NCBI GenBank assembly: GCA_034439475.1
Contig: JAWXAN010000048.1
Location: forward strand, 62,001-126,000
From: Candidatus Zixiibacteriota bacterium
Lineage (GTDB): Bacteria; Zixibacteria; MSB-5A5; GN15; FEB-12
DNA: 64,000 nucleotides
Reading direction: 5' to 3'
Positions 59,820-63,118 of this stretch are shown here, one piece after another (the first letter of the stretch is position 1; each line of letters starts with the position of its first letter). The notes under the pieces were generated by a model, which saw nothing but the letters and a program-made list of their open reading frames with translations, ran no database searches and was not told the origin of the DNA. The position numbers and the translations under genes were made by a program.

Positions 59820-60572
59820 TTACCTGTTCTTATAGAGTGAATTAATTTTTTTAACATCACCCGGCTGGTCTATAGACACTGTCGTCATGGTCGTCTTGAA
59901 TACTTTCATCCGCTCACCAAACTCTAACAGCCGTAGCTGCTCCAAAGATTCCGCCATTTCAAACGAAGTTCGGGGAGTTGCGGCGAATTTTGAGAGGGTC
60001 TGCTTTCTGAAGAAATATACACCAATATGCGCCCAGAAGTTGAATTGAATGTTTCTCTCAACTTCTGAGTAGGCCGATTGCAAATATGGCAGGGGGAATC
60101 TTGAAAACCAGAGCGCATAGCCAGCTCTTGAGAAAATAACTTTGACCTTGTTCGGATCAAAGAGATCGGCATCGGAGATAATCTTTTGCGCAAAAGTCGC
60201 GCTGGTGATTTTCCTGTCCTTTTTCATCAAAGTGATTACGTTGTCGATATCCTTGGCGCGTAGTCCAAAGTTATCCCCCTGAACATTTAATATGATGTCG
60301 CCGCCGACTTTTCGTGCGGCCTCAGCCGCTCTATCCGAGCCGCTTCTGTGCTTTGCTGATGTCTTTACCACCTCAGCTCCGAAATTTTTTGCGGCTTTGG
60401 AGATAGATAGGTCGTCGGTAGCTACAACCAGACGGTCTATTGATTTTACCTTGCGAAGATCGTTCCAAACATAGAAAAGAAGGGGTTTGTCTAAATACGG
60501 ATGTAAAGCTTTGCCCGGAAAGCGAGAAGAGCCAAGTCGCGCGGGTATAACCGCTGTGACTGTTGCTTTCAT
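59820..60572 (-). CDS. kdsB: KdsB-like CMP-sugar (3-deoxy-manno-octulosonate) cytidylyltransferase
   Basis: 250 residues with [29 protein letters not shown] at 9-37, [10 protein letters not shown] near 49, [11 protein letters not shown] near 77, RFPLPYL near 161 and HIGVYFFRK near 181 with [11 protein letters not shown]. These identify the KdsB family, which makes CMP-Kdo for LPS. One change: the VQGDEP motif reads VQGDNFG, so the acid after the metal-binding Asp is lost, and the late VDTPED reads IDQPGD. It may activate a different ulosonate. Overlaps gatC by four bases. Confidence 0.87.
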
Positions 60573-60859
60573 CCTCCAATTACCTTCGGGACAAGGAAAA
60601 ACTCTCCGTCATGGACAGGAGCGTTGCCCAGCACTTTTTCGATCGGAAGGGACGGTACAACGAGATCTTCGCGGAAAACATTTTCGGCGGCGATAAATTG
60701 ATTCTGCGGCTCGACACCATCAGTATTGACCGTCTGAAGCTGGTCAACATATTCGAGAATTACGGCCAGTTCCTGAGTAAAACGCTCGATTTCTTCCGCG
60801 GTAAGATTTAGTCGCGCCAGACGGGCGACATGTTCGACTTGTGCTTTTGTGAGTGGCAT
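60569..60859 (-). CDS. gatC: Aspartyl/glutamyl-tRNA amidotransferase subunit C
   Basis: 96 residues from the ATG at 60859 (MPLTKAQVEHVARLARLNLTAEEIERFTQEL), the family's normal N-terminus. A longer frame to 60886 is less likely. GatC stabilises GatA in the amidotransferase that makes Gln-tRNA and Asn-tRNA. No ribosome-binding site lies upstream; the -10 box ends six bases before the ATG, so the message is probably leaderless. Confidence 0.95.
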   Translation of the reverse strand: MPLTKAQVEHVARLARLNLTAEEIERFTQELAVILEYVDQLQTVNTDGVEPQNQFIAAENVFREDLVVPSLPIEKVLGNAPVHDGEFFLVPKVIGG

Positions 60860-60864
60860 GTGGA

Positions 60865-60893
60865 AAGATATGGAAGGGACAGGCATCCGTCAA
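60865..60893 (-). promoter_or_regulatory. Promoter of gatC-kdsB-pyrG, predicted leaderless
   Basis: Minus-strand TTGACG (60893-60888), 17 bases, TATCTT (60870-60865), five bases, then the gatC ATG at 60859. Transcription beginning six bases after the -10 starts on the start codon itself. Confidence 0.6.
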
Positions 60894-60978
60894 GCCGATT
60901 CCTAAGTTATTGTCAGCTAAATTATTACATCAGTTTCTCGACATTAAAGTGTTTTACTGGGCAACCGATACAGGATAC

Positions 60979-61749
60979 ATGGAAGATGTGGTAATCAAGA
61001 ACTCAAAGATTCCAAAGCCCGACTATCGATTTGCAGTCACCTCTCAGAAAAAAAATATATTGCGGCTGATTGGAAAGCCATCTGGCAGCGAGCAACTAGC
61101 GCCATCGCCGGATTTCCGGTCACGACTGCTTTCAAATCATCTTATCTCCTCTCTACGACGGAGAGTTGGAAGGCTGTCGGCAGTTACGGGCCATCTTGGT
61201 GCATTGTCCATCGACCGCAACGAAGATCAGTTGACGGAAATCGCTGTTATGACTCGCACCGAACTTCAGGAGATAAATCATCAACTCGACCGAACACATC
61301 TCGCTGTGAACTATGCGACCCTTCAGCGGATGGGTCAACCGCTCCGTTTGGGTCTTCATAAGACCTTGAGCATACTTGCCGAAAGATTCGACTCTTGCAA
61401 ACTGCCGAGTCTGGATAGTCTTAATGAGAGCGCGTTCCTGGTTTTTGCCCCCGACCATTCTCTTCTGTTTTTATTTGAGTCGGCCCTCAGCGCCCATATT
61501 CATTCGCAGCAGGAATTTGAGTCAGTGAGTATTTCGGTACAAGCTGATTTTCATTCAAAATCAATGGTTCTAACCATGCGTATTTCCAATTGCGAATCCA
61601 TGACAGCGCTTCATGCTGACGCCGAATCTCAAATCTATGCCGAGGCTCTGGCCGAGCTAATGGAAGTGAGACTTGAAATGACCGATGTCCGAGATGCTCA
61701 AAGCCGGCTCTTGCGATTCACATTTCCGATTTTCGAAATCGAAGAATAA
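60979..61749 (+). CDS. Degenerate NtrB-like protein (histidine-kinase relic or pseudokinase)
   Basis: 256 residues from the ATG at 60979, which has AGGA four bases ahead; the frame also opens at 60853, but that would overlap gatC. The first half is two long helices (LLSNHLISSLRRRVGRLSAVTGHLGAL and TEIAVMTRTELQEINHQLDR), like a DHp domain with one His in NHLISSLR but without the following Glu and Pro. The second half follows a HATPase fold, ending YAEALAELMEVRLEMTDVRDAQSRLLRFTFPIFE, as kinases do, but the N-box reads LFLFESALSAHIHS and the DxGxG box reads MRISNCES. ATP binding is thus unlikely. It lies five bases before the NtrC-like gene. Confidence 0.6.
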   Translation: MEDVVIKNSKIPKPDYRFAVTSQKKNILRLIGKPSGSEQLAPSPDFRSRLLSNHLISSLRRRVGRLSAVTGHLGALSIDRNEDQLTEIAVMTRTELQEINHQLDRTHLAVNYATLQRMGQPLRLGLHKTLSILAERFDSCKLPSLDSLNESAFLVFAPDHSLLFLFESALSAHIHSQQEFESVSISVQADFHSKSMVLTMRISNCESMTALHADAESQIYAEALAELMEVRLEMTDVRDAQSRLLRFTFPIFEIEE

Positions 61750-61753
61750 ATCA

Positions 61754-63118
61754 GTGAACTCTCCAAAACGGACAGAATCGATCATCACGATTGGAAGTGA
61801 ACTTTTCTTCCAGAGAAGTTCAATCTCCGACTCAATGGGTCTGAATATACGGCTGGCATCGGTGGAAACATTTATTGAGGGACTGGAACGGCTCAAGACG
61901 GATTCGTTCGAGCTTGTGGTGGTCGATGACACGGTTGAAACAGACGGGATAGCCAATATTCTCGCTCATCTAAGAAATCAATCCCCCTATTGGGCTATTC
62001 TACTTATTGCTCAGGACACAGGATTAGTTAACGCATTGGAGGCTGCAGGAGAATCGCGGTTTGATATACTGTCCAAGCCGTATTCGATCGGGATGCTGGT
62101 TTTTCGAATCCGAAAAAGTATTGAGCGGGCAAAGCTCTCCGAGCAGCTTTTTCGACTCAAAGAACATTCGGCTATGTCACTGGGCTTTGACAATCTTGTT
62201 GGCTCATCCAAGCCGATCCAACAGATAAAAGAAATTATTAACAGAGTCGCTGCCACAGATATCTCTCTGCTTATATCAGGCGAGCCCGGAACGGGCCGAC
62301 AGCACTGCGCGAGAATTATCCATGAACATTCGCATCAGCGATTTGGGCGGTTTGTAAGTCTTGACTGCGCTCTCATTCCTCAGGCTTTGTTCGAAGTCGA
62401 ATTGCAACAACTGACCATGCTCGGTGAAAAAGGGAATTTACATGGAACGCTCTTTTTAGGAAATGCCGACACGCTCTCGACTCACCTGCAATTGCAAGTC
62501 CTGAAATTTCTCAAAGTCACATCATTACAGACCTCCTGCTTCGGCGGCGGCGAAATACAAAATCTGCGGCTCATCTCATCGGCCTCAACAATTCTGGCTG
62601 AGATGACCCGAAACGGGCAATTCTCAACCGAGCTTTATAACATTTTGAATGTTGTAAGTCTGGCTCTTCCCCCGCTTAAAAATAGAGCCGAGGATATTGA
62701 GCAGTTGATAGTTCATTTGTTGCGTCACATAGCCTATGAATCAAATCAACCTGAACGCGCAATCACCGCGAGGGCAGTTGACAAACTCCTGAATTATTTC
62801 TGGCCCGGAAATATCGAAGAATTAAAAAAAACAATACTCAATTCCTCTCTCTTTTGCGCAGAAAACAGGATCAAAAGCGATGATATTCGTCTGCCAATTG
62901 CTCAAGACAACGAGAAACGATCTCTTGTCCTCTCAAACATTCCGGACTTTTCCAATGAAGGCGGGTTGCTTGGCTCAAACCAGCGCAACCTTATTGTCCG
63001 GGCGCTCTCTGACAATAACTGGAATTACAAAAAGACAGCCGCCGCGCTTGGAATCGGCCGGACCACCCTCTGGCGCAAAATAAAAAAGTTCGACTTGAAT
63101 CCGTCAGGTTCACAGTAA
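61754..63118 (+). CDS. Degenerate NtrC-like protein: pseudo-receiver, dead AAA+ domain, intact Fis-type HTH
   Basis: 454 residues from GTG at 61754, just after the stop of the partner gene; an earlier ATG at 61685 would overlap it. A receiver-like domain (about 5-125) keeps the β3 Asp (LVVVDDTV) and Lys (ILSKPYS) but lacks the acidic N-terminal pair. The AAA+ domain has the sigma-54-activator order with every key site changed: Walker A GESGTGKE is GEPGTGRQ, the GAFTGA loop is deleted, Walker B TLFLDE is TLFLGN, the arginine-finger strand FREDLYYRL is FSTELYNIL, and WPGNVREL is WPGNIEEL. The C-terminal Fis-type helix-turn-helix (NWNYKKTAAALGIGRTTLWRKI) is intact. It probably binds DNA without driving sigma-54. 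Confidence 0.85.
   Translation: MNSPKRTESIITIGSELFFQRSSISDSMGLNIRLASVETFIEGLERLKTDSFELVVVDDTVETDGIANILAHLRNQSPYWAILLIAQDTGLVNALEAAGESRFDILSKPYSIGMLVFRIRKSIERAKLSEQLFRLKEHSAMSLGFDNLVGSSKPIQQIKEIINRVAATDISLLISGEPGTGRQHCARIIHEHSHQRFGRFVSLDCALIPQALFEVELQQLTMLGEKGNLHGTLFLGNADTLSTHLQLQVLKFLKVTSLQTSCFGGGEIQNLRLISSASTILAEMTRNGQFSTELYNILNVVSLALPPLKNRAEDIEQLIVHLLRHIAYESNQPERAITARAVDKLLNYFWPGNIEELKKTILNSSLFCAENRIKSDDIRLPIAQDNEKRSLVLSNIPDFSNEGGLLGSNQRNLIVRALSDNNWNYKKTAAALGIGRTTLWRKIKKFDLNPSGSQ

Follow-up and report, generated by a model that had tools for sequence, protein, structure and literature searches.

Recurrent loss of catalytic residues in both partners of an NtrB/NtrC-like pair that keeps its DNA-binding domain

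Across one bacterial order, a two-component gene pair has repeatedly lost the catalytic residues of its kinase, its receiver and its AAA+ domain and has kept its helix-turn-helix (HTH), together with an operator-like site where the start of the kinase gene survives. Judged from sequence comparison, what began as a signalling switch now seems to serve as a simple DNA-binding regulator. The pair was found in a stretch of 64,000 nucleotides (hereafter the window), whose preliminary description had proposed an NtrB/NtrC-like pair with losses in both partners. Orthologues confirm this, and the pattern across the clade is stronger than its author could see.

In the window, the kinase-like gene (60,979..61,749, plus strand, ATG start) encodes 256 amino acids with a DHp remnant and a pseudo-CA part but without the sensor region, and the NtrC-like gene (61,754..63,118, plus strand, GTG start) encodes 454 amino acids with receiver, AAA+, lid and Fis HTH. 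Both frames are open at full length, as had been claimed, and their spacing is tight, although the coordinates give a gap of 4 bases and not five. An alternative GTG start of the kinase at 60,853 would overlap gatC (60,569..60,886, minus strand), the divergent neighbour in most orthologous loci, which is separated from the pair by an intergenic region (60,887..60,978, no strand). The arrangement with gatC opposite and rarA downstream was correctly described for the window; rarA does not adjoin the pair in the orthologous loci read.

Pfam recognised no domain in the kinase-like protein (60,979–61,749), and alignment with relatives revealed neither the N-box nor DxGxG, both reported earlier as missing and both present in orthologues of the sister family f2. 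Two further losses had escaped the first reading: Ser57 (61,147..61,149, plus strand) replaces the phospho-acceptor His in the alignment with the HxMRNK of relatives, and the N-terminal sensor of about 200 aa found in relatives is absent. Among the f1 kinases, the N-box position became a common motif, LFExxLxxH, which in the window reads LFESALSAH.

The regulator has the NtrC-type order REC-AAA+-Fis HTH, with Pfam matches to the sigma-54 activator domain (E 2e-23), the AAA lid (E 2e-15) and the Fis HTH (E 5e-11). The best solved structure by sequence is 4l4u, an NtrC-family regulator (E 3.5e-39), and the PDB matches include FleQ and VpsR. The AAA+ losses first listed were all recovered on the plus strand by alignment with intact orthologues: Walker A is degenerate (GEPGTGR, Lys to Arg; 62,279..62,299), the GAFTGA loop is deleted (position 62,393..62,440), Walker B reads LFLGN with DE replaced by GN (62,450..62,464), and the arginine-finger stretch QFSTELYNILNV (62,618..62,653) has lost both fingers (R to S and R to I). 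Sensor I (N to S) and sensor II (R to E) are changed as well. The receiver is indeed weak, its Pfam match being sub-threshold; of its key residues the Asp and the Lys remain, whereas the acidic pair and the Thr are gone, so that the phosphorylation site is incomplete and the fold stands without key phosphotransfer residues, as in pseudo-receivers. The Fis HTH is intact, as first described: the window copy keeps 14/14 of the HTH positions that are invariant in intact regulators, compared with 47/82 of the other and 5/18 of the catalytic ones, and the HTH core LGIGRTTLWRK (63,047..63,079, plus strand) is identical in 67/67 readable orthologues.

Searching 54 genomes of the family with a profile of the kinase-like protein recovered an orthologue in 50, and the kinase and regulator lie opposite gatC-kdsB-pyrG in most loci with readable flanks; gatC or kdsB was not found beside the pair in some loci, e.g., in genera g30, g20 and g4. 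The window genome is the sole member of its genus among the genomes compared, and a scan of GTDB contigs for close relatives returned distant paralogues only. Orthologous loci grade from canonical to dead. Family f2 has a canonical kinase (LTHKLRNPLS, LLENA, DNGxGI, TGLGLSIA), with intact regulators in five cases of six. The f4 kinases have the sensor region and retain the N-box and GMGLxIA, with DxGxG gone, and 8 of 11 f4 regulators carry the full AAA+ set. In f3, profile-profile comparison still detects the sensor region (E ~1e-4) but not the kinase part, and the AAA+ domain is dead. None of the f1 kinases has an N-box or DxGxG and most have lost the His, and the full AAA+ set occurs in only 9 of 48 f1 regulators. 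The Walker A Lys, Arg in the window copy, is present in 44 of these 48, and given its retention nucleotide binding may persist in most of them. The receiver Asp is kept in 17 of the 48, most dead orthologues being without it. Dead regulators on average retain 100% (rounded) of the intact-invariant columns in the HTH, 64% of the others and 40% of the catalytic ones. That 66 orthologous regulators align argues that the pattern is not chance.

Two peculiarities of individual lineages were seen. The f3 open reading frame before the dead regulator has the kinase replaced by unrelated, partly low-complexity sequence (L179 3327–4574, L180 4681–5958, L181 2992–4269). In genus g4 the pair is relocated, and a stand-alone receiver-like protein of 122 aa adjoins kdsB at the old place (L173 5963–6331, L177 3307–3675, L178 3352–3720).

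Degeneration is not genome-wide, since, of the other sigma-54-type regulators in the window genome, the nine that match best all have the Walker A Lys and a GAFTGA-type loop; a general decay of its activators was rejected on these grounds. Loss of sigma-54 as the cause was likewise rejected, rpoN being present in 50 of the 54 family genomes, including all good ones. With sigma-54 retained and nine activators intact, function was lost at one locus and not in the whole sigma-54 pathway.

Analysis of k-mers upstream of the kinase led to a 17-bp palindromic operator-like site, TGTnTCAnnnTGAAACA, which marks the start of the kinase gene, or lies close to it, in 64 loci. Its reading frame with respect to the called start varies, and in most cases the genome has no other exact match. 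The site is found with 22/22 intact and 38/46 dead regulators, and this co-conservation suggests that the regulator binds it. The eight dead loci without the site are those of the window, G016, G022, three f3 genomes, and G035 and G069, in which the kinase is cut off by the end of the contig. Between gatC and the kinase of the window the site is absent, the best match lying within the range of shuffled sequence, and none of the five sites found in the window genome with at most one mismatch occupies a convincing regulatory position. Across eight genomes, sites with at most one mismatch numbered 72, against 22 for the reversed control (~3x). In g30 the site is common to three species, 107–121 bp upstream of a gene for a cNMP-binding-like protein. 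A conserved sigma-54 promoter was sought between gatC and the kinase, and none was found.

The number of losses was estimated on a regulator tree built without the motif columns and on a second, independent tree from pyrG+kdsB. The full AAA+ set changed state at least seven times on either tree, the receiver 7–8 times and the His 5–7 times; both trees are quick, with many open forks, and mutual attraction of long dead branches may make these counts low. Whether the same sites are lost across a clade had been proposed as a check; losses recur across the order, and related genera also hold intact systems. Kinase and regulator losses tend to co-occur, though not strictly: in f1, an intact receiver stands beside a His-less kinase in three genomes and the reverse is seen in five. 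Strict co-loss of His and receiver was not adopted; the direction agrees whenever both differ between independent pairs, but the pairs are too few for significance.

The dead proteins are constrained, though less than the live ones. Among close pairs with dS < 1, to which the estimates were confined, dN/dS of dead pairs was 0.18–0.33 for the kinase and 0.14–0.33 for the regulator, compared with 0.04 for an intact f4 regulator pair; by domain, dead regulators gave 0.08–0.41 in the receiver, 0.09–0.26 in the AAA+ domain and 0–0.20 in the HTH. Purifying selection, proposed earlier as a check, thus acts on dead pairs (0.14–0.33 per gene) in near relatives. The strongest rival explanation, unlikely in our judgement but to be taken seriously, is that the window copy itself is decaying towards two pseudogenes while orthologues elsewhere are functional. 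The window genome groups with 11 genomes on the pyrG+kdsB tree (support 92), of which six are intact, which suggests lineage-specific losses; the branch of its regulator measures 1.96 vs 0.43 for the flanking genes; and the copy already lacks sensor, operator, His and every AAA+ motif. G016 and G022 form two other very long branches; G016 has lost the kinase and kept a dead regulator, and G022 has nearly lost the kinase, of which a remnant of 134 aa is left. Against decay, both window frames (454 + 256 codons) contain no stops and no frameshifts, whereas in 95% of simulations of neutral substitution the regulator had acquired a stop by the time 0.054 substitutions per site had accumulated; open frames despite a far longer branch set an indirect bound on selection on this copy. 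Its complete set of HTH invariants and a codon-position G+C resembling that of neighbouring genes point the same way.

The preliminary description had read the pair as kept and repurposed, and had named restored motifs in near relatives together with relaxed selection or frameshifts as signs to the contrary; relatives with motifs and a long window branch were found, but no frameshifts. Retention is supported for the clade by the invariant HTH (67/67), the site beside 38/46 dead regulators and the dN/dS of 0.14–0.33. For the window copy the support is partial: open frames, HTH and LFExxLxxH are kept, but sensor, His and operator are lost and evolution is fast. This copy has no stops or frameshifts; it ranks with the most degenerate ones, and decay may be under way in it.

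The dead pair is probably a DNA-binding regulator independent of phosphorylation and sigma-54, with a pseudokinase as partner. Its ancestor would have been an ordinary cytosolic NtrB/NtrC-like system opposite gatC-kdsB-pyrG, with a kinase that phosphorylated the regulator and a regulator that drove sigma-54 RNA polymerase. The present regulator would be a dimeric or oligomeric DNA-binding protein working without phosphorylation, ATP hydrolysis or sigma-54 contact and acting by occupancy; bound to the site over the kinase start, it would repress its own operon, and it may also control a few lineage-specific genes. The kinase-like partner would be kept as a protein-protein (sensor) co-regulator and not as a phosphodonor. 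In the window organism, which has lost operator and sensor, the regulator would have to use different sites, accompanied by a truncated partner. More tentatively, with somewhat less confidence than we would need to favour it, one could envisage that several parallel conversions within a single order turned the two-component system into a DNA-binding system that has no catalysis but keeps the ancestral operator, with kinase, receiver and sigma-54 ATPase serving as scaffolds and the pseudokinase signalling to the pseudo-receiver by binding alone.

The nearest precedent is the NtrC of Caulobacter and Rhodobacter, which lacks GAFTGA and does not use sigma-54; in Caulobacter it works at sigma-70 promoters and the ntrC locus is autorepressed (PMC10274813). 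The order REC-AAA+-Fis and the deleted loop are shared, but Caulobacter NtrC keeps the receiver Asp, Walker A and Walker B, which its function requires, and has a working NtrB (PMC10274813); of these the window pair retains the Asp only. FleQ, VpsR and VspR are similar in having a receiver without normal phosphorylation and a sigma-54 role that is altered or bypassed. We know of no kinase remnant beside FleQ. FleQ, moreover, keeps GAFTGA and binds ATP and c-di-GMP via several arginines (PMC10723142), whereas the window regulator has no GAFTGA. Pseudo-receiver regulators (PMC12632262, PMC4395418) resemble it in a receiver fold without phosphorylation chemistry, of independent origins, but here the partner kinase and the output ATPase are also dead, across one order. 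The Asp is missing from about 2% of receivers and the His from 0.9% of HisKA domains (PMC12632262). The pseudo-histidine kinases DivL, a ChrS variant and RocA likewise keep the kinase fold as a regulator without full catalysis. To our knowledge these act on live partners, whereas here the regulator is dead too. Pseudo-receivers and pseudokinases are already known singly; in the literature collection searched, no system that pairs a pseudo-kinase with a pseudo-receiver in this way was found. A 2025 review calls the switching of bacterial pseudo-receivers a mystery (PMC12632262). One orthologous locus here shows every stage from canonical to fully dead, plus a candidate DNA site, so that the order of losses and the minimal function become testable by comparing or swapping orthologues.

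Other mechanisms fare worse than a phosphorylation-independent DNA-binding regulator. It is improbable that the protein poisons or tunes other sigma-54 activators through mixed AAA+ rings: the AAA+ fold is kept and at least nine intact activators exist in the window genome, but conservation peaks in the HTH and not across the AAA+ domain, and the operator is conserved in relatives. It is highly improbable that another kinase or acetyl phosphate still phosphorylates the window receiver and that it drives sigma-70 promoters, as reported for the GAFTGA-less NtrC of Rhodobacter (PMC10274813); the retained Asp and Lys would allow this, but the acidic pair and Thr are lost and only 17/48 f1 orthologues keep the Asp. 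That the 17-mer is an RNA hairpin controlling kinase translation is hardly credible, for although it sits at the kinase gene start and pairing is possible at 6/7 positions in most loci, one position is mispaired in 56/64, pairing changes are uncompensated and intergenic regions of other genes contain sites too.

Some further occurrences of operator-like sequence were recorded. A second, weaker site, AGTTTCAnnnTGAAnCR, lies ~41 bp (about four helical turns) downstream of the first in several genera, within the first codons of the kinase (L111, L106, L118, L099, L103, L121). Two f4 genomes carry an extra exact site ~315 bp deeper in the kinase gene (L155 2882–2898, L157 4462–4478). Exact sites also lie 455–469 bp upstream of flagellin genes (L205–L208, L257, L262, L263); flagellin as a shared target is tentative, because these sites fall mostly within an upstream glycosyltransferase-like gene and may reflect coding conservation. 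Perfect palindromes occur at L224 656–672, L301 3900–3916 and L222 954–970, with neighbours named by eye as a glutamate-dehydrogenase-like gene, a stress-sigma (RsbW/STAS-like) operon and an lpxC-like gene.
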